Origin: Actinomycetota bacterium
GTDB taxonomy: Bacteria > Actinomycetota > Actinomycetes > Actinomycetales > Microbacteriaceae
Length of the DNA: 50,153 bases
Direction: 5' to 3'
NCBI GenBank assembly: GCA_030840335.1
Contig: JAUZFR010000050.1
Location: forward strand, 1 to 50,153
This document shows positions 1 through 45,868 of this stretch, piece after piece; the stretch's first letter is position 1, and each line of letters opens with the position of its first letter. The position numbers and the translations under genes are program-made. Below the pieces are notes generated by a model. It was not told where the DNA came from, made no database searches, and saw nothing but the letters and a program-made list of their open reading frames with translations.

Positions 1-160
1 CGAGGATGGTGCCCTTGACGAACGGCACGCCCTCGGGCACGAACGATGCGTGACCGCTCGACAAGTCGTCGATGACGACGGTGTCGATTCCCGCGGCACG
101 CAGGGCGCGGACGATGTGTGCGCCGATATAGCCGGCGCCACCGGTTACAAGCCAGGTCAT
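1..160 (-). CDS. galE: UDP-glucose 4-epimerase, N-terminal part (runs off the left edge)
   Basis: Reverse-strand translation from 160: MTWLVTGGAGYIGAHIVRALRAAGIDTVVIDDLSSGHASFVPEGVPFVKGTIL, a Rossmann GGAGYIG motif typical of GalE. Confidence 0.9.
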   Translation of the reverse strand, partial: MTWLVTGGAGYIGAHIVRALRAAGIDTVVIDDLSSGHASFVPEGVPFVKGTIL

Positions 161-340
161 GGCTCAACGCTACCGGCTCTTGCTTTGGTGTTTCGATGGA
201 CCGGCTTGGCGCTGGCTTGGCTCGGTTCGTCTGGCGCGGCTCGGTGGCTTGGCGGGATTGGATCGTGTTGCGCGTTTCTGCCAGTGCTGGCAGCATGGCC
301 TTGTTCGGGTACTTTCTGCCACCATCATCCGGAGGTCTTC

Positions 341-1294
341 ATGCTTCGCAAAGTCGTGCTTCTCGCCATCCCCGGCGTCGCACCGTTCGAGTTCGGGGTC
401 GTGTGCGAGGTGTTCGGCATCGATCGCTCCGACACCGGTGGCCCCAGGTTCGACTTCACGATTGCAACCGCCGACCCGGGCCCCGTGCGCACCAGCCTCG
501 GCTACGACATGGTCATCCCCGCGGGGCTCGAAATTGCAGGAGATGCTGACCTGATTGCCGTTCCCGCGCACTCCATCGACACAATCGACCATCGATTCCT
601 TCAAATTCTGCAGGAGGCGGAGGCGCGCGGGGCGTGGATCCTCAGCGTGTGCAGCGGGGCTTTCGCGCTCGCCCAGGCGGGCATCCTCGACGGCCGGCGA
701 TCGACCACACACTGGATGCATACCGACCGGCTTGCACGCGAGTACCCGCGCACTACCGTCGACCCGGATGTGCTGTTCGTCGAAGACCGTCACGTCGTCA
801 CGAGCGCGGGCACTGCGGCCGGGATCGACGCCGCACTGCACATTGTGCGGGAAGAGTTCGGCGCGGCGGCCACGAATGTGATCGCGCGACGGATGGTGAT
901 CCCGCCGCAGCGGGACGGCGGCCAGGCGCAGTACATCCAATCTCCGGTGCAGGACAGCTGCAGCGATTCGCTGGCCTCAGTCTCCGAATGGATGCTCGAC
1001 AACCTCAGCGAGGACCTCACCATCGATCTCGTGGCTCGCAAGGCGCTCATGTCGTCGCGGACGTTTGCGCGCCGTTTTCGTGCCGATATGGGGACTACGC
1101 CCGCCGCGTGGCTAAACCGGCAGCGCATCCTCAGGGCGCAGCAACTGCTCGAACTCACCGATCGCGGCCTCGAGACCATCGCACAGGAGACCGGCTTCGG
1201 GACTGCGGCCGTCATGCGGCACCACTTCATGAAGGTCTTGCAGATCACACCGACCCACTACCGCCGCACCTTCGGCGAGCGGGTCCTCCACTGA
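341..1294 (+). CDS. GlxA-like transcriptional regulator (DJ-1/PfpI domain plus AraC-type HTH)
   Basis: ATG at 341 after GGAGG; MLRKVVLLAIPGVAPFEFGVVCEVFG...SVCSGAFALAQAGILDGR...LARKALMSSRTFARRFRADMGTTPAAWLNRQRI. Confidence 0.93.
   Translation: MLRKVVLLAIPGVAPFEFGVVCEVFGIDRSDTGGPRFDFTIATADPGPVRTSLGYDMVIPAGLEIAGDADLIAVPAHSIDTIDHRFLQILQEAEARGAWILSVCSGAFALAQAGILDGRRSTTHWMHTDRLAREYPRTTVDPDVLFVEDRHVVTSAGTAAGIDAALHIVREEFGAAATNVIARRMVIPPQRDGGQAQYIQSPVQDSCSDSLASVSEWMLDNLSEDLTIDLVARKALMSSRTFARRFRADMGTTPAAWLNRQRILRAQQLLELTDRGLETIAQETGFGTAAVMRHHFMKVLQITPTHYRRTFGERVLH
528..610. repeat. Paired inverted-arm site, copy E (degenerate), inside the GlxA-like gene
   Basis: Left CGAAATTGCAGGAGAT (529), right ATTCCTTCAAATTCTG; GCAGGA 536 to TCCTTC 602 spans 67 bp, the same as the canonical copies. 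Confidence 0.7.
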
Positions 1295-1307
1295 TCGGCC
1301 ACATCCC

Positions 1308-1390
1308 CCGAAAATGAAGGAGTTCGTGGCCGCTATGCCAGCGAAGCGCCGTTCAGCGGGCCATCTCGCGCGGATCTCCTTCGTTTTCGG
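1308..1390. repeat. Paired inverted-arm site, copy A
   Basis: CCGAAAATGAAGGAG ... GGATCTCCTTCGTTTTCGG; 83 bp frame, cores 1316-1382 span 67 bp. Confidence 0.93.
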
Positions 1391-2319
1391 TTAAGGGAGC
1401 GCGGCAGGGACGGATGCCGTTGCCGTCGCGCAATGAGCTCGAGGTCGTCGCGGCGAGCGCGCTGGATCGCGGCGAGGCATCGCGGCCAGTCGGAGTAGAG
1501 CTGCCGGTACGTGTAGCGCTGCACTGAGTTGCCCAGGATGGCCATCGTCGTGTCCCGATCGTGGTCGTTCTCGTAGGTGCTCGCGCCCTCACCCGTCCAC
1601 TCCGGGTCGTGCTGTCCGCCGTCCACCTCGACGTAGACATGCGGCGAGACGCGCCCGTCGAGGCGACCCACACCATCCACTCGGGGTTGCGACTGCCAGG
1701 GCACGCGCGCATCCGTCAGCCAGAGACGTACGAACGTCTCGCCGTGCGAATCATCCAGCGCGCAGACGAGTTCGCGCCACTTCTGAACGCGCTGCGGTGC
1801 CTTCGCGAAGACAGCATCCATTCGTGCGGGCGGCCACCCTTTGTAGCGCGCGACCGCGGAGCAGCAGGCGACGGCGATGTCACGCGGCTCCGTCGCCAGC
1901 ACAAGCAGTAGCGCCTCGTCGAGTGACACGCGCCACACTGCGGGGTCGGTTGAGTACCGCGGCGGACCCGTCCAGTGCGTTATCACAGGCTCGTCATCGG
2001 ACAAGCGCTCGTGCCGAGACAACGGGCTGCGCAGCCGACAGGCACCGCGCGGCACACACACGTCGATGGCCGTCCGCTTGGGCACCCGAAGTCCATAGGT
2101 TTCGATCGCCGCGATACCGGTCAGTCGACCGCCGACCCGCACGGCGAGAATGGCGGTCGGGGGTGCATCGGGTACCGAATACCAGCCGTGCCGCACGCGA
2201 AAAATCCGACCGTTGGCGAGTTCCGCCCGGATGTGCGCGTCGAAATATCCGATCCGCAACAGATCCCGCCGGCGAAGGAAGCCACCGCGGGCGCGGATGG
2301 CGCGGGCGATCGGATGCAT
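1333..2319 (-). CDS. Hypothetical protein: AbiEi-like N-terminal wHTH region plus DUF559/Vsr-like nuclease-fold C-terminal region
   Basis: MHPIARAIRARGGFLRRRDLLRIGYFDAHIRAELANGRIFRVRHGWYSVPD ... VYVEVDGGQHDPEWTGEGASTYENDHDRDTTMAILG. Confidence 0.75.
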   Translation of the reverse strand: MHPIARAIRARGGFLRRRDLLRIGYFDAHIRAELANGRIFRVRHGWYSVPDAPPTAILAVRVGGRLTGIAAIETYGLRVPKRTAIDVCVPRGACRLRSPLSRHERLSDDEPVITHWTGPPRYSTDPAVWRVSLDEALLLVLATEPRDIAVACCSAVARYKGWPPARMDAVFAKAPQRVQKWRELVCALDDSHGETFVRLWLTDARVPWQSQPRVDGVGRLDGRVSPHVYVEVDGGQHDPEWTGEGASTYENDHDRDTTMAILGNSVQRYTYRQLYSDWPRCLAAIQRARRDDLELIARRQRHPSLPRSLNRKRRRSARDGPLNGASLA

Positions 2320-2414
2320 GCGTCCAGACTCGCTCGCCCGTCGCGCCCGCGGGGCCGCCCGTCGCCATCCGGGGACTCCGCGGCTCCAGCCCGCGCGGTG
2401 GAGGACCGGGGCAT

Positions 2415-2497
2415 CCGAATTTGAAGGAGATCCGCGCCGTCAACCCGACGAACGACCGAAAGGGGTCACCGCCCAATGAGTTCTCCTTCATTTTCGG
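2415..2497. repeat. Paired inverted-arm site, copy B (intergenic)
   Basis: CCGAATTTGAAGGAGATCC ... TTCTCCTTCATTTTCGG; cores 2423-2489 span 67 bp. Confidence 0.93.
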
Positions 2498-2827
2498 TCA
2501 GCCACCTGGGCGACGCCGAAGAAGCGCCGGGTCAGCGATCGAGCGAGCGCAACAGGGCAGTCACCACGGGAGCTACCTGCGCGACGGATATTGCCGAGCC
2601 GTAGGGGCAGCACAACGAGGTTGACGAGCTGGCCGCCCTTCTCTGCCGGGTCAGTCCAAACACAGTGAAGACCGCGCAAGGGCCAGAACGACGATCGTCG
2701 CCGCAATCGCGCTCCGGATGCGACACCAGGCGTTTGACTGCGTCATGGACATGGGCGTCACGCTATCCGAGGCTGCGCCCGGTTCTCATCATCCGCCCAG
2801 ATGATGGCGCGTAACGATTCATACCCG

Positions 2828-3973
2828 TCATTGCCGCACGCCCGATGCAACGAACAGCATCCCGTCGCCGTCGATTGTCCACGGGCTCTCATCCGCAGAC
2901 ACGAACGCCGCCTCGCCCCGAGCGAGGGTGTGCCCCCCGCTGGACGTCCGAAATTGAAGGAGTCCCGCTAGGCAGAGCGCGATGGAATCGTTTTCGAACG
3001 CAAGAACTGTCGGATCTCCTTCATTTTCGGTACCCCCACGGAGGAGGACCGTCAGGGTGAAATCGGGGACGTCGGGACGGAAGACGGAGACGCCAGGGGC
3101 GGGGTGCTCGGGGGCCAGGATGGGCACCGGGAGGGGGGTGAAGTCGAGCACGGAGAGCAACTCGGGCACGTCGACGTACTTGGGGGTGAGTCCGCCACGC
3201 AGCACGTTGTCGGAGGCGGACATCAACTCGATGCCGAGCCCTCGCAGGTAGGCGTGGATGTTGCCGGCCGGCAGATACAACACCTCCCCCCGCGAGAGCA
3301 CGACGCGATTCATCAGCAGTGAAATCAGGATGCCGGGGTCGCCCGGGTAGGCCGCAGCCAGCTCCCCAACGGTCTCGAATTCGAGCCCTGAAACGGAAGC
3401 GGCGAGCGCCACCACCCGCTCGATCAGCTCATCAACTCCGTCGCCCCGCGTCATGATCCACTCGAACACCGCGGGCAGCGAAGCGTCATCCACCAGCCGC
3501 GACAGCAGGTCATCGACGAGCGGATCCGATCCAACCGAAGCAAGCAGGGCGCGTGTCGCGATCACCGGCCGGAACCCGCACAGCGCGTGATACTCCTCGC
3601 TCAGGGCGTAGACCAGTTCGGGCTTGTGCAGCGGGTCCTTATAGTTGCGAGACGGCGCATCCAGCGGCACACCCACGGCATTCTCCCGCTCGAAACCCTC
3701 ACGCGCCTGCTCGAGGTTCGGATGCGCCTGCAGCGACAGAGGCGCGTCCGCGGCGAGCACTTTGAGCAGGAACGGCAGCGTCGTTACCCGGTCGAGCGTC
3801 GCGGCTCCGCCAGCGGATGACGGGTCGACGACCACACTCGGGGAACCCGGATGCGTGCCCAGCCAGAGCTCGGCCTCCGGCCCGCCCGACGGCTCGCGTC
3901 CGAGCAGCGACGAGATCGCCGTTCGCGACCCCCAGGCGTAGTCGCGGGGCGTATTGGTAATGCCTACAAACAT
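2828..3973 (-). CDS. manA: Mannose-6-phosphate isomerase, class I
   Basis: MFVGITNTPRDYAWGSRTAISSLLG...LPFLLKVLAADAPLSLQAHP...HKPELVYAL...LYLPAGNIHAYLRGLGIELMSASDNVLRGGLTPKYVDV; start chosen at 3973. Confidence 0.95.
   Translation of the reverse strand: MFVGITNTPRDYAWGSRTAISSLLGREPSGGPEAELWLGTHPGSPSVVVDPSSAGGAATLDRVTTLPFLLKVLAADAPLSLQAHPNLEQAREGFERENAVGVPLDAPSRNYKDPLHKPELVYALSEEYHALCGFRPVIATRALLASVGSDPLVDDLLSRLVDDASLPAVFEWIMTRGDGVDELIERVVALAASVSGLEFETVGELAAAYPGDPGILISLLMNRVVLSRGEVLYLPAGNIHAYLRGLGIELMSASDNVLRGGLTPKYVDVPELLSVLDFTPLPVPILAPEHPAPGVSVFRPDVPDFTLTVLLRGGTENEGDPTVLAFENDSIALCLAGLLQFRTSSGGHTLARGEAAFVSADESPWTIDGDGMLFVASGVRQ
2948..3030. repeat. Paired inverted-arm site, copy C, inside manA
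   Basis: CCGAAATTGAAGGAG ... GGATCTCCTTCATTTTCGG; cores 2956-3022 span 67 bp. Confidence 0.92.
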
Positions 3974-4096
3974 CCGGTTCTCCCCGTCGCGCATCTTTAG
4001 ACCAAAGTACCAATCGACAGGGGGCGCCCAAGCTCGCCGACCTAAGCTTCCAGAGGATATCGACAAGCCACTTATCGAGAAGCAACGGAGCATTGC

Positions 4097-5275
4097 ATGT
4101 CATTCGAGCTACTGTCCAGTGATTTCTACGGATACGAAGACGCACTGAGCGACCAGGAAAAGGCCGTCATCATGCGCCTTCGCGAATACCTCGAGACCGA
4201 GATCCGTCCGCTCGTCAACGACCACTGGGCGAAGGCCGAGTTCATCTACCCCGCGGTGCAGGGCCTCGCCGATCTCGGACTCTTCGGCCTGCCATGGGAG
4301 GAGACGCAGCCGTTCGCGAACTCGGCCATCTTCCGTGGCTGGGTCGCCCTCGAGCTGGGCCGTGTCGATGCGAGCGTTGCCACGCTGGTCGGCATGCAGA
4401 ACGGTCTCGTGATGGGGTCGATCGCTGTCGCCGGCTCAAAGGAACAGCGCGCCGAGTGGCTGCCGAAGTTCGCGAGCGGCGAGCTGCTCGGGGCGTTCGC
4501 ACTCACCGAACCGCTCTCTGGCTCGGACTCCGCGCAGGGCCTCCAGACAATCGCGACCCGCGATGGCGACAACTGGGTGCTCAACGGCGCCAAGCGCTGG
4601 ATCGGCAATGGCTCAATCAGCGATGTCACCATCGTCTGGGCAAAGAGCGCGGAGGACGGACAGGTCAAAGGATTCATCGTCCCCACGAGCACGACCGGCT
4701 ACAAGGGAACCCGCATCGAGAACAAGCAGGCGCTGCGCATCGTGCAGAACGCAGACATCACCCTCGACAACGTCGTCGTCCCCGAGGCGAACCGCCTGCA
4801 GAACGGCAACTCGTTCCGCGAAACCGCCGCCGTGCTGCGCCTCACCCGTGCGGAGGTGGCCTGGGCCGCTGTTGGCAACTCGATCGGCGCGTACGAGGCC
4901 GCCGTGAGGTACGCGGGCGAGCGCATCCAGTTCGGCAAGCCGATCGGCGCCCACCAACTCGTGCAGGAACTCCTCGCAAAGAGCCTTGGCAACATCACCT
5001 CGTCGATCGGCGTCGTCACGCAGGTCTCGAAGATGCTGGATGAGGGCAAGCAGCGCGACGAGCACTCGGCTCTCGCCAAGGAATTCACGACCAGCCGGAT
5101 GCGCGAAACCGTCGCGTGGTGCCGCGAACTGTTCGGCGGCAACGGCATCGTGCTCGAGAACGATGTGATCCGTCATTTTGCCGACGCCGAAGCGATCTAC
5201 AGCTACGAAGGCACCCGAGAGATGAACACTCTGATCGTCGGAAGGGCTATCACGGGCCACGCCGCGTTCGTATAG
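4097..5275 (+). CDS. Acyl-CoA dehydrogenase (glutaryl-CoA dehydrogenase-like)
   Basis: FALTEPLSGSDSAQGLQTIATRDGDNWVLNGAKRWIGNG...YEGTREMNTLIVGRAITG. Confidence 0.93.
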   Translation: MSFELLSSDFYGYEDALSDQEKAVIMRLREYLETEIRPLVNDHWAKAEFIYPAVQGLADLGLFGLPWEETQPFANSAIFRGWVALELGRVDASVATLVGMQNGLVMGSIAVAGSKEQRAEWLPKFASGELLGAFALTEPLSGSDSAQGLQTIATRDGDNWVLNGAKRWIGNGSISDVTIVWAKSAEDGQVKGFIVPTSTTGYKGTRIENKQALRIVQNADITLDNVVVPEANRLQNGNSFRETAAVLRLTRAEVAWAAVGNSIGAYEAAVRYAGERIQFGKPIGAHQLVQELLAKSLGNITSSIGVVTQVSKMLDEGKQRDEHSALAKEFTTSRMRETVAWCRELFGGNGIVLENDVIRHFADAEAIYSYEGTREMNTLIVGRAITGHAAFV

Positions 5276-26144: not shown

Positions 26145-27347
26145 ATGAGGCAGGCCTCGCCCAAGCGACTCGTTGTGCTGGCGTCGACCTTTCCCGTCAC
26201 TCTGGATGATGGAATCCCCGCTTTCGTCTTCGACATCGCCGACGAAGAGGCCCGCGAGTTCGACGTGACCGTACTCACCCCCCGGGTTCCGGGCTCGGCC
26301 GCACGCGAGACGATCGGCAACGTTTCGGTCATCCGCTTTCGTTACTTCTTCCGCCGCTGGGAAGACCTGGCCGATGGCGCCATCCTCGACAATCTCAAGC
26401 AGAAGAAGTCCCGGTGGCTGCAGGTCGGGCCCCTCGTGCTCGCGCAAATGGTCGTTCTCCGACGCCTCATCCGAACCCTGAAACCGGATGCGATTCACGC
26501 GCACTGGGTTATCCCGCAGGGACTCAGCGCGTTTGTCGTCGGGCGCCGCGTCCCACTGCTCGTCACCACGCACGGTGGCGATATCTACGCCCTGAACAAC
26601 CCGCTCGTGCTCGCAGTCAAGAAGCGAGTGCTCCGTCGTGCCGCAAGCGTCTCGACGGTCAACGCCGAGATGGTTCGCCGCCTCGAAGGCTGGGGAATCG
26701 ACGCGGCGAAAATCCACATGCTGCCGATGGGTGTACCGCTCAACCAGGCCGCCGCGGCCAAGACCGGTCGCGAGAACCAGCCCGGCCGCCTTCTCGTCGT
26801 CGGACGCCTTGTGGAGAAGAAGGGGATCACGATTCTGCTGGATGCGCTGCGCAGCCACGTGGCGACCCCGGGCTGGTCATTGACGATCGTCGGCGACGGA
26901 CCGATCCGCGAAGCACTCGAAGACCAGGCGAAAGGCCTGCCCGTCAAATTCCTGGGCCAGCTCAGTCGTGACGAAGTTCTCAGGGAGATGGCAATAGCAT
27001 CGATTCTCGTGCTCCCCTCCATTTCAGCGAGTTCGGGCGACCAGGAAGGGCTTCCGGTTGTTCTGCTCGAGGCTGCCGCCATGGGCGCGGCAATCGTGGC
27101 GTCTGATCTTCCCGGTATCAACGAAGCGTTGACCGACGGAAAGACCGGCCTCCTCGTGCCACAACAGGATCCGCAGGCCCTTGGCGCCGCAATCGACCGG
27201 CTCCTCGCGGATGAGCCGCTCCGCGCCGGCATTGGCGCAGCGGCGGCAGTGCGAGCGAACGACTACTCCCTCACGTCGATTGGCCTTCGGTACCGCGATG
27301 TCGTGCGGAACATGGCCCTCGATGGCAATGTTCGGACCCGTGGCTAG
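26145..27347 (+). CDS. Glycosyltransferase family 4
   Basis: HAHWVIPQGLSAFVVGRRVPLLVTTHGGDIYAL...LLVVGRLVEKKGITILLDAL...GDQEGLPVVLLEAAAMGAAIVASDLPGINEAL. Confidence 0.93.
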   Translation: MRQASPKRLVVLASTFPVTLDDGIPAFVFDIADEEAREFDVTVLTPRVPGSAARETIGNVSVIRFRYFFRRWEDLADGAILDNLKQKKSRWLQVGPLVLAQMVVLRRLIRTLKPDAIHAHWVIPQGLSAFVVGRRVPLLVTTHGGDIYALNNPLVLAVKKRVLRRAASVSTVNAEMVRRLEGWGIDAAKIHMLPMGVPLNQAAAAKTGRENQPGRLLVVGRLVEKKGITILLDALRSHVATPGWSLTIVGDGPIREALEDQAKGLPVKFLGQLSRDEVLREMAIASILVLPSISASSGDQEGLPVVLLEAAAMGAAIVASDLPGINEALTDGKTGLLVPQQDPQALGAAIDRLLADEPLRAGIGAAAAVRANDYSLTSIGLRYRDVVRNMALDGNVRTRG

Positions 27348-29493
27348 CGCCCCAGAGTCGGCAACGCTGCCGCGGAGCTCGGACAGCCCGCTCGTCGCGC
27401 CGAGAGACCTGCGTCCGGAAATCCAGGCGCTGCGCGCGATAGCGGTGCTCGGTGTCGTCACCTATCACCTCTGGCCGCACGTCGTTCACGGCGGCTTCAT
27501 CGGCGTCGACATATTTTTCGTCATCTCCGGGTTCCTCATTACCTCGCACCTGCTTCGCGAAGTGGCGAAGACCGGCAGGATCAAGCTCGCCTCGTTCTGG
27601 GCGCGTCGAGCGCGACGCCTCCTCCCCGCGAGCCTTCTGGTCATCGCCGCCAGCTTCCTCGCGACGATCGCCTTCGCTCCCGCGAGCCTCTGGGACCAGT
27701 TCGACTCTGAATTCGCCGCGAGCGCGCTCTATGTGCAGAACTGGCTCCTCGCGTTCAACAGCGTCGACTACCTGGCGGCCGACAACGCCGCGTCGCCCGT
27801 GCAGCACTACTGGTCGCTGTCGGTCGAAGAACAGTTCTACGTCGTCTGGCCGCTCCTGATCCTGGCCGGCATCGGCATCGCCGCCCTCGTCAGCAGGGTT
27901 TCCAGGCGCACTGCCATCGCCGTTGTGCTGACGGTCGTGACCGGTGCCTCCCTGATCTACTGCGTGCTGCTCACACACTTCGACCCGGCGCCGGCGTACT
28001 TCGTGACGACAACCCGCGCCTGGGAGTTCGGGCTGGGCGGGCTGCTCGCGCTGCTGCTCGAGAAGCCGCGACCGGGCAACCCCGTGCTGCGCGCCGTGCT
28101 GTCCTGGGTAGCACTCGCCGTCATCGTGCTCACAAACTTCTACTACACCTCATCCATCTCGTTCCCCGGATATCGCGCACTCCTCCCAACAGTTGCGACC
28201 GCACTCGTGATCTACGCGGGCGTGCCGGATGTGCGATGGGCGCCTTCGCGCCTGATGGGACTCCGGCCTGTGCAGTGGCTCGGCGACATCTCGTACTCGT
28301 TCTACCTGTGGCACTGGCCCCCAATCATCCTTCTGCCCTTCGTCTTCGACCACGGCCTGACCTGGATCCAGCGGATCCTCATCCTGGTCGCGTCGATCGT
28401 GCTCGCCTGGCTGACGAAGCGATTCGTCGAAGATCCGGTGCGTCGAGCCAGGTGGCTGAACCGTCGAACCCCGTACCTGACTCTCGCGCTGACCGCCGTG
28501 ACGATGATCGCAATCGTGGTGTCCACGACAACCGCGTCGACGGTCAAGGATGCGCAGATCGCGAGCACGATCGCGCAGAACAAGTCGCTCACACGCTCGG
28601 GCACGGACTGTCTCGGTGCAGCAGCGGTCGCGCCGGACAATCAGCCGTGCGTGAACCCTTCGCTCAAGGGCAAGCTCCTGCCCGATGCCGCCGCCGGAGA
28701 GCGCGACTGGGTGATCCCCCCGGACCGACACTGCCGCACGGGCGTTTACAGCCCTAAGGTGCTGTTCTGCACGTTCCTCAAGCCGACCTCTCAGACGAAC
28801 CCCATCCGCATCGCGCTCGTCGGAGACTCGCACGCCGAGCAGTGGCTGCCGGCCGTCCAGATCATCGCGAAGCAGCACGGCTGGGGTCTTGATACCTACC
28901 TCAAGGGCGGATGCCCGTTCTCCACGGTCGAGCGCGCCGACAATGAGAGCACCTCCCTCGGCTCCTGCGCCACCTGGAACAACACAGTCATGCAGCGACT
29001 GGCTGCAAACCCGTACTCGCTCATCATCACCTCAGAGGTCACCGGGTCGACCTTCGTGACAAATCCGGGCGAGACGAGCCAGGAGGCCGGGGTGCGCGGT
29101 CTCGTCGCCCAGTGGGACAAGGTCCAGGCCATGGGAACCGAGGTCGTTGCGATCCGGGACGGGCCATCGCTGCCGCGCAGCGTTCCCCAGTGCCTGAGTG
29201 GTCTCCACGGCGACGTGGCGGCGCAGGTGGGAGTTTGTGCGGGCAAGGAGGCCACCGCGCTGCATCCGGATCCGCAGGTCAAGGCGGCACAGGAGTCCGG
29301 CGCGGGCCTCATCGACCTCACCGAGTTCTTCTGCCAGCACTCGATCTGCCCCGCGGTCATCGGATCGGTCGTCGTATACCGGGACAATGCCCACCTCGGT
29401 GGAACCTATTCGCGCAGTCTCGCCCCGTACCTGGGCCGTCAACTGACCGCCTATCTGGCCGACCACCCGCTAAAGTCCCATCCGAGCAGCTGA
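27322..29493 (+). CDS. Acyltransferase 3 with C-terminal SGNH domain (OafA-like)
   Basis: [49 protein letters not shown]...[24 protein letters not shown]. Confidence 0.93.
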   Translation: MAMFGPVASAPESATLPRSSDSPLVAPRDLRPEIQALRAIAVLGVVTYHLWPHVVHGGFIGVDIFFVISGFLITSHLLREVAKTGRIKLASFWARRARRLLPASLLVIAASFLATIAFAPASLWDQFDSEFAASALYVQNWLLAFNSVDYLAADNAASPVQHYWSLSVEEQFYVVWPLLILAGIGIAALVSRVSRRTAIAVVLTVVTGASLIYCVLLTHFDPAPAYFVTTTRAWEFGLGGLLALLLEKPRPGNPVLRAVLSWVALAVIVLTNFYYTSSISFPGYRALLPTVATALVIYAGVPDVRWAPSRLMGLRPVQWLGDISYSFYLWHWPPIILLPFVFDHGLTWIQRILILVASIVLAWLTKRFVEDPVRRARWLNRRTPYLTLALTAVTMIAIVVSTTTASTVKDAQIASTIAQNKSLTRSGTDCLGAAAVAPDNQPCVNPSLKGKLLPDAAAGERDWVIPPDRHCRTGVYSPKVLFCTFLKPTSQTNPIRIALVGDSHAEQWLPAVQIIAKQHGWGLDTYLKGGCPFSTVERADNESTSLGSCATWNNTVMQRLAANPYSLIITSEVTGSTFVTNPGETSQEAGVRGLVAQWDKVQAMGTEVVAIRDGPSLPRSVPQCLSGLHGDVAAQVGVCAGKEATALHPDPQVKAAQESGAGLIDLTEFFCQHSICPAVIGSVVVYRDNAHLGGTYSRSLAPYLGRQLTAYLADHPLKSHPSS

Positions 29494-29528
29494 GATCGCG
29501 CCGATATCTGACGTGAGAAACACCTGAC

Positions 29529-31646
29529 GTGACAAACACAGTGACGACCTCAAGCGAGCACGATTCCGGAGTGCCCGCCAAAAGTGAGGTGCGCCCCGAG
29601 ATCCAGGCCCTTCGGGCGATCGCGGTCGGTGGGGTCGTCGTGTTCCACCTGTTCGCGGGCATCCTGCCCGGCGGCTACATCGGTGTCGACATCTTCTTCG
29701 TCATCTCCGGGTTCCTGATCACCTCTCACCTGCTGCGCGAGGTGGCTCGAACCGGGCGCATCGCGCTCCCGTCGTTCTGGGCCCGGCGAGCGAGGCGACT
29801 GCTGCCGGCCAGCCTGCTGGTCATCGTTGTCAGCCTGATCGGCACCATCCTGATCGCGCCGCAGAGTCTCTGGCCCCAGTTCCTGCAGGAATTCGCCGCG
29901 AGCGCGACCTACGTGCAGAACTGGCTGCTCGCGGGCAACTCGGTTGACTACCTCGCCGCCGACAACAGCCCCTCGCCGGTTCAGCACTACTGGTCGCTGT
30001 CTGCGGAGGAACAGTTCTACCTCGTCTGGCCGCTGCTCATCCTGCTCGGAATCGCGATCACGCGTCTCACGAAACGCATCTCCCGCCGCGCAGCGATCTT
30101 CGGCGTACTCGCGGTGATCACCGCCGCGTCTTTTGCCTACTGCGTCTATCTCACCTGGGACGACCCGGCGCAGGCCTACTTCATCACGCCCGTTCGCGCG
30201 TGGGAGTTCGGCCTCGGCGGGCTGTTGTCCTTCGCGCCGCGCCTGCTTGCCGTCGATGGCAAGGATGTCTGGTGGCGCACGCCCCTCGCCTGGCTCGGCT
30301 ACCTCGGATTGCTCGCATCCCTGCTGCTGATCACGTCGTCAACACCTTTCCCTGGCTGGGTCGCGCTCGCACCGACACTCTCGACGGCCGCAGTCATCTA
30401 TGCGGGCGCGCCGCTCGCGCGCTGGGCGCCGACGAGACTCGCGGGCCTTCGGCCGGTGCAGTGGTTCGGCGACATCTCCTACTCGCTTTACCTCTGGCAC
30501 TGGCCGCCACTCATCCTGCTGCCCTTCCTGTTCAATGTGCAGGCGCTGTCCAGGACACAGCGGATCATCCTGCTGGTCGTCGTTATCGGCCTTGCTGCTC
30601 TCACGAAGGTCGCCGTCGAAGATCCGGTGAGGAAATCACGCTGGCTCACGACCAGAAGACCGAGAATGACGCTCGGATTGACGGCCGGAGCGATGGTCGT
30701 GGTTGTCGGCGCCAGCTTCGGAGTCATCGGCCTCCAGTACTCGACGATCGACAGTTCCATCCGGGAGGCGCAGCAGCTCGTCGCATCCGGCGCGCCGTGT
30801 CTTGGCGCGGCTGCCGTCGATCCGGCTCATCAGCCCTGCGATAACCCTGCGTTGAACGGCATCATCGTCCCCGACCGCGCCGCCGGCCTGAAGGACGGGG
30901 TTGTACCGCCTGGCATGAACTGCCGGGCCAACGTCTCCAGCACCCAGGTGGTGAGCTGCGAGATCACCTCGGGGTCGAAGAAGTCGATCGCCCTGGTCGG
31001 CGACTCGCACGCAGAGCACTGGATACCCGCTATCACGCAGATCGCGAAGGCGCGAGGCTGGCGATTCGACACCTACCTGAAGGGTGGGTGCCCGTTCTCT
31101 GCAACCGCGCGCGCCGACAACGCCTCAACAGCGAAGGGCTCCTGCGCGGTGTGGAACAAGTCCGTGCTGGCAATCCTCGCCAAGAAGCACTTCGATATCG
31201 TCGTCACGTCCCAGGTCTCGGGAACAACGTTCGTTACGAAGCCAGGTGAGACCAGCAAGGCGGCCGCGATCCGAGGGCTCGTTACCCAGTGGAAAGCGGT
31301 GGAGAAGGATGGATCCGTCGTCGCCGCAATCCGGGACGACCCTCACATGCCGTTCAATGACTCGAGCTGTTTGTCGGCTCTCGGCGGCAAACTCGTGCAG
31401 CTGGAGGCGAAGTGTGAGGCGCCCGCGTCGGCGCTCCTTGACGATCCGCAGATCGACGCCGCGAAACAGTCGGGCGTCGGCCTCATCGACCTCAGCGCAT
31501 TCTTCTGCCAAAACGGGGTGTGCCCGGGCGTCATCGGACACGTCGTCGTCTACCGCGACACATCGCACATGGGCGGTACGTACTCGCGCACCCTCAGCCC
31601 GTACCTCGCGAAACAGCTCGACGCGATCGTGGCCCGCGCGCGTTAG
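29529..31646 (+). CDS. Acyltransferase 3 with C-terminal SGNH domain, tandem paralog
   Basis: [49 protein letters not shown]...[27 protein letters not shown] start. Confidence 0.93.
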
Positions 31647-38168: not shown

Positions 38169-39269
38169 TCAGCGCTCAAAGAACCCCGAAGCGGCACGCG
38201 CCTGATACACGACCTCATCGAGGTCATCGCCGATTGCCGTGACATGCCCGACCTTGCGGCCGGGGCGGGGCTGCTTTCCGTAGTCGTGAAATTTCACCGT
38301 CGACTGGTCGGCGAGGGCGGCTGGATAACGGTTGGTGATCGGTCCGCCGAGCACGTTGACCATCACGCTCCAGTCGCGGTGGGATCCGGTCGCGCCGAGG
38401 GGCAGGTCGAGTACCGCCCGGAGGTGCTGTTCGAACTGGCTGGTTCGGGAACCGTCGATAGTCCAGTGGCCGGTGTTGTGCGGGCGCATGGCCAACTCGT
38501 TGATCACCAGGCGCTCGTCAGTCGTTTCAAACAGCTCTACTGCGAGCACTCCGGTGACGTCGAGTTGTTCGGCGACGATGGTCGCGATGTCTTCGGCGAG
38601 GTCGGCAATTGCGCCGGCCGAGCGCGGCGCAGGCGCGATCACCTCGGCGCACACGCCGTCACGCTGGACGGTCTCGACCACGGGCCATGGCACGAGTTCA
38701 CCAGATGGCCGCCGCGCGACGACCTGCGCGAGCTCGCGGCGGAAGGCGACCAGCTCCTCGACGAGCAGGGGGCCGCCGTCGGCAAGCCAGTCATCCGCTC
38801 CGTCCGCGGTGCGCACCACGCGCACGCCCTTCCCGTCGTAACCACCGCGAGGGGTCTTCACGACGGCGACATCCCCGTGCGAAGCAAGAAATTCGCCAAG
38901 ATCGGCGGCGTTTTCGATGCGAGCCCAGTCCGGCACGGGGAGGCCGAGAGCCGACAGGCGCTCGCGCATGACCAGCTTGTCCTGTGCAATGGCCAGCGCA
39001 GCCGGCTTTGGATGAACGGCGATCCCGGTCGCGACGAGCTGCTGCAGCACATCCTGCGGCACGTGCTCGTGGTCGAACGTGATCACATCCAACCCCTCTG
39101 CAAAACGAAGGACTGTGGCCGCATCCGTGTAGTCACCGACCATTGTGGAGGCGATTTGAGCGGAACTTCCTTCAATTTCTGCAAGCACTCGCAGATCGAT
39201 TCCGAGGGCGATCGCGGGCGGAATCATCATCCGGGCAAGCTGTCCGCCGCCAATTACTCCGACCTTCAC
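38169..39269 (-). CDS. purK: 5-(carboxyamino)imidazole ribonucleotide synthase
   Basis: [38 protein letters not shown]...[10 protein letters not shown]...[24 protein letters not shown] start 39269 preferred over ATG 39353. Confidence 0.95.
39099..39181. repeat. Paired inverted-arm site, copy F (degenerate), inside purK
   Basis: AAAACGAAGGA ... TCCTTCAATTTC; cores 39107-39173 span 67 bp. Confidence 0.68.
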
Positions 39270-45785: not shown

Positions 45786-45868
45786 ACGAAAATGAAGGAG
45801 ATCGGCGCGCGCGGTGACGTCGAAGTGCCCTTCGGGCAGCATCCGACGAAGATCTCCTTCAATTTCGA
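45786..45868. repeat. Paired inverted-arm site, copy D (intergenic)
   Basis: ACGAAAATGAAGGAGATC ... GATCTCCTTCAATTTCGA; cores 45794-45860 span 67 bp. Confidence 0.93.

Follow-up and report, generated by a model that had tools for sequence, protein, structure and literature searches.

The question raised by this locus is whether an inverted pair of short, near-perfect arms within a housekeeping gene is the trace of an inserted mobile body, or whether native codons of the gene have been brought to the sequence of the arms. In the window, i.e. the whole analysed stretch of 50,153 nucleotides, such a pair lies in manA (2828 to 4093, minus strand; TIGR00218), which encodes mannose-6-phosphate isomerase. 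This pair, named copy C (2948 to 3030; no strand is assigned to it or to the other copies), has inverted arms of 15 bp each, CCGAAATTGAAGGAG (2948-2962) and CTCCTTCATTTTCGG (3016-3030), the 13-bp cores of which show a spacing of 66 bp, and its interior, TVLAFENDSIALCLAG, consists of native manA codons. The first-pass annotation had described a near-perfect arm pair encoding TENEGDP and LLQFR of ManA, and this was confirmed by the coordinates and the translation. The codons under the arms are rare, with a GC3 of 0.17 and 0.33 versus 0.81 for the rest of manA.

The ManA protein of the window was aligned with 28 others from the Microbacteriaceae and their order. The interior of copy C aligned with the native DSIALC-AG in all five same-genus relatives, which argues that no 83-bp body was inserted there and bears out the earlier claim of a native interior; none of these five lacked the whole segment. 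At the gene-3' arm native residues are replaced with the length unchanged compared with same-genus ManA, and in the region of the gene-5' arm the protein is five codons longer than its same-genus counterparts, such as that of G005. The annotation's statement that there is no obvious insertion thus holds for an 83-bp body, but not for these five extra codons.

Further copies are present in the window. Copy A (1308 to 1390; arms CCGAAAATGAAGGAG and CTCCTTCGTTTTCGG) overlaps the 3' end of a nuclease gene and encodes the RKRR tail of its product, which is invariant in six orthologues, and copy B (2415 to 2497; arms CCGAATTTGAAGGAG and CTCCTTCATTTTCGG) lies on the upstream side of the same gene. 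Copy D (45786 to 45868) is intergenic, between convergent genes. An in-place copy at 39101 to 39179 lies in purK, itself on the minus strand, and the same codons are occupied in four other genera. A weak copy with 2 and 3 core mismatches (530 to 608) is located inside a regulator gene of the araC/GATase type; its length equals that of 10 out of 19 relatives, the rest differing in a variable inter-arm loop. Elsewhere in the window, two tandem acyltransferase-type genes (27321-31646) are ~73% identical in DNA sequence over several stretches.

The arms are not chance matches, since the core GAAAATGAAGGAG, with at most one mismatch, occurred 28 times in the 3.09-Mb genome versus once for the reversed control. 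In the window's genome (G000), 14 pairs were found in the regions around single-arm matches, 11 of them at a spacing of 66 bp. There were 32 pairs in G005 and 49 entries in G034 (47 of them at 65-67 bp), and nearly all of the 95 pairs listed for the three genomes had a spacing of 65-67 bp, 66 bp being usual. A survey of 400 Microbacteriaceae genomes revealed the same arm class in 11, with up to ~47 copies, and a scan across genome contigs found the exact pair in four genomes only, all Microbacteriaceae. Sampled congeners of carriers had no pairs, except for G000 and G005, which belong to one genus, and a 9-mer recurrence scan for diverged pairs found no repeated arm of the copy C type in the manA regions of non-carriers. 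According to a simple gene-calling model, most copies of G005 and G034 are intergenic although non-coding sequence represents 11-14% of the DNA examined; many copies are flanked by convergent genes or located within genes. In G306, 10 of the 21 pairs are within 20 kb of the nuclease gene, versus 0.39 expected.

Some additional features of these copies were noted. Several directly abut short tandem repeats, before or after them (L318 ~2262-2430, L160 and L319), and in one case the first unit overlaps the end of the element, as if slippage or repair recurred at the edge of the site. In G005 several copies are close to contig ends, and one copy forms the end of both contig C75 and contig C123, which suggests that the assembly breaks in the element region. 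In two genera, one of them represented by G000 (C82:431), an FGGY-type sugar kinase gene bears a copy whose interior matches. Two other ideas were discarded: an organisation around the terminus or origin, as GC skew around the G306 clusters showed no consistent sign change at the dense cluster, and a viral origin, as the single IMG/VR pattern match, on a phage contig of 35% GC, was judged to be due to chance.

Copy C is not the only copy residing on native codons. In an alignment of PurK from 29 genomes, G000, G034, G139, G306 and G336, which represent five genera, have both arms on native codons and show no indel, and most sister species have ordinary GC-rich codons at these positions. The purK of G174 contains a partial copy, and the right arm in G392 reads TCCTGCGTTTT, the arm class of that genome itself. 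On the PurK tree the genomes with the in-place copy are scattered among non-carriers, so that the copy must have been either lost or gained more than once. Whole copies are also found as in-frame inserts, two in the manA of G306 and one in that of G073. Different copies occupy the same loop of mutM in G000 (C54) and G005 (C16), and from their sequences they too look like in-frame inserts. At an orthologous intergenic site the element is present in G162, and G099 lacks both the element and flanking DNA.

The inserts in manA and this last site would fit MITE-like, non-autonomous bodies of 83 bp mobilised by an unlinked transposase, copy C then dating from an old insertion and its interior having become ManA-coding, and so would the common interiors, ending near the arms, of several neighbouring copies. 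We nevertheless regard this explanation as unlikely: the ManA and PurK interiors are native and without a body-sized indel, which for the in-place purK copies speaks against it, interiors are mostly unrelated in sequence between copies while the arms stay near-perfect, and no clear target-site duplication was seen when the flanks were read by eye. The annotation had proposed that the unit is the arm pair and not an 83-bp mobile body; copy C and the in-place purK copies agree with this, but the bodies inserted in the manA of G306 and G073 do not.

Although mostly unrelated, the interiors share a periodicity of A/T of 10.0-10.25 bp, observed in five genomes and in the pooled pairs of other arm classes (P<=0.002 each), and this ~10.2-bp phasing resembles that of DNA bent around a protein. 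The unit under constraint is thus the arm pair with its fixed spacing and phased interior, and ~83-bp bodies insert too. A stem could form from the two arms, which are complementary to each other, and in some copies, e.g. in G162, the palindrome extends inward, as would be expected of a transcribed or single-stranded hairpin, either a true REPIN or an RNA motif, in which the two arms pair. However, neither covariation nor excess complementarity across the dyad, beyond composition, was detected in the interiors, a ~10-bp A/T phase is a property of the double helix, and Rfam gave no match at E<=1 in positions 1-5000 of the window. Moreover, a search for the RAYT domain Y1_Tnp (PF01797), which gave matches in five control genomes, gave none in 15 genomes comprising all 11 carriers, several of which are incomplete assemblies, and four others. 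A hairpin therefore appears very improbable.

The candidate cognate protein, of 328 amino acids, is encoded by the nuclease gene between copies A and B (1333 to 2319, minus strand). The gene is located between araC and manA, ~600 bp from copy C, and its product combines an AbiEi-like winged helix with a DUF559/EDxHD (Vsr-like) nuclease domain. Of the genes in the G306 cluster, it is the one with a homologue in the regions from both G000 and G034; the manA regions examined from non-carriers contained none. An orthologue adjoins pairs in all six copy-rich carriers, G005, G174 and G128 among them. The Pfam matches of the protein to AbiEi_4 and DUF559 fall below the curated cut-offs, and the PADLOC AbiEi profile gave 3.9e-6 for the G306 orthologue and 3.8e-4 for the window protein. 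An AF2 model from four sequences had a pLDDT of 64.5, with a confident nuclease core. In Foldseek this model matched the EDxHD catalytic domain of I-Bth0305I (3r3p; probability 1.00, target TM 0.72, E 3.2e-3), as well as 3hrl (probability 0.97) and the AbiEi antitoxin 6y8q_D (probability 0.96), no match passing E 0.001. Invariant residues among six orthologues are E194, D221, E231, D233, Q236 and H237. No plasmid or phage homologues were found, and no paper in the literature searched mentioned both DUF559 and 'inverted repeat'.

A search for the nuclease family separated 22 genomes scoring >280 bits from a remainder at <=209 bits; six of the 22 orthologues had built the profile, so that their own scores are not independent. 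The low-copy carriers G336, G162, G139, G068 and G182 had no orthologue above the paralogue level, and a cognate role of the protein therefore needs gene loss or missing sequence in these genomes. The flanks at the 22 orthologue loci were scanned for arms of 12 bp with at most one mismatch and a spacing of 58-75 bp, and in most loci a cognate-looking pair was present at each end of the gene. The exceptions were G247, with no pair; G005 and G174, with a pair at the 3' end only, the contig stopping shortly beyond the other end; G143, with one pair in the locus and a second in the wider region; and G013 and G118, whose pairs were weaker or further off. A stricter 14-bp scan, for which the background measured only on non-carrier manA regions was 0.13 pairs per 4 kb, gave none for G005, G247, G073, G013 and G118. 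Ten wider regions were examined for own-class pairs with a spacing of 65-67 bp; nine had them both upstream and downstream of the gene, and the tenth, G027, had only upstream pairs, its downstream pair from the 12-bp scan having spanned the boundary between the DNA stretches examined.

The arm sequence varies with the protein lineage. Six arm classes were distinguished, AAAACGAAGGA, AAAACGCAGGA, AAAACTGAGGA, AAAACGACGGA, GAAAGCGAGGA and AATTCGACGGA, and arm distance tracked protein distance (Mantel r 0.43-0.54, P<=0.001, phylogeny not removed). As the gene lies beside araC and/or manA in nearly all orthologue loci, this co-variation may partly reflect shared species history. Clear pairs, but with other arms, also occurred at seven of eight distant paralogue loci: they flanked the gene on both sides in G416, G218, G300, G364 (the second at 0.9 kb) and G365 and were confined to one side in G162 and G066, and G161 had only weak 12-bp pairs. 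The arms of the paralogue pairs are unrelated, e.g. CCTTCCGAAATCCATGCATTC in G218.

Pairs at the ends of the nuclease gene itself could also be operators, the AbiEi-like protein being a transcription regulator with a scattered regulon and its nuclease domain dead or incidental; AbiEi-type proteins are described as autoregulating via inverted repeats (PMC7319586). Against this, the many copies within genes or between convergent genes are in poor positions for operators, and the six residues named above do not vary among the orthologues compared, so that a regulon of operators seems improbable to us.

We consider it probable that the 1333-2319 protein recognises copy C as one of its sites, and that the paired sites form a REPIN-like population around the nuclease gene, generated by copying and by in-place substitution. 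The neighbouring nuclease is the likely reader of the arm pair, its spacing and its phase. Recognition of the site by the protein is strongly predicted, and we infer binding, bending, cleavage and a force that keeps the arms at consensus. A dimer would place one winged helix on each inverted arm, bend the phased 66-bp interval between them and position its nuclease domains over the interior of the pair. The sites would persist and multiply in the chromosome in a REPIN-like manner around the nuclease gene, new ones arising by two routes: a body of ~83 bp or somewhat longer may be copied into intergenic DNA or variable protein loops, or, as proposed for copy C, araC and purK, substitutions may turn native codons into the arm consensus and leave the interior untouched. 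The arms would be held at consensus by selection or by arm-restricted conversion. If the enzyme cuts its sites, it counts against this proposal that housekeeping genes have kept consensus arms.

These observations point to a bacterial site-and-nuclease system that has not been described before. It is possible, and we suggest this more tentatively, that each actinobacterial DUF559-type winged-helix nuclease, of which a genome has several candidates, is at the centre of a scattered paired-site system of its own, in which native coding sequence can be brought to the arm consensus in place, and sites spread and track the specificity of the protein with no DNA body moved. With the nuclease profile, the Microbacteriaceae genomes listed yielded between 2 and ~65 first-look candidates. 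Such a role would give a function to a large family that has none assigned, and would extend the small set of nucleases linked to dispersed paired sites, with RAYT-REPIN as the other case, by a second and unrelated class of enzyme. Whether sites are maintained by host selection or by self-copying can be tested on the in-place coding copies.

Among known systems, REPINs are described as inverted pairs scattered through the genome, mostly outside genes, at a preferred spacing of 71 bp in the GI class; they occur near a nuclease/transposase gene that is present in one copy and bears its own pair class, and their distribution is patchy and co-diverging (PMC3116915). The pairs reported here are likewise inverted doublets with a preferred spacing and a variable interior, mostly extragenic and beside a nuclease gene. 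They differ in that the protein is of the AbiEi-like and DUF559/EDxHD type, no Y1 enzyme having been found in the genomes searched, that the interior forms no covarying hairpin and that some copies occupy native codons in place. The best fold match of the modelled nuclease domain is the EDxHD homing endonuclease I-Bth0305I (PDB 3r3p), described as a multidomain enzyme that forms a dimer on its target, which spans nearly 60 bp (PMC3943268). Unlike such endonuclease genes, the present gene does not sit within one target and split it; it stands alone near araC-manA, next to intact pairs, and many sites per genome keep the consensus. The N-terminal winged helix of the window protein is similar to that of the AbiEi antitoxin, which is reported to bind 23-bp inverted repeats at one promoter, 3 bp apart (13 bp in Rv2827c), and to bend the DNA (PMC7319586); in contrast to these operators, the arms of the pairs described here are spaced by 66 bp and the sites number in the dozens.
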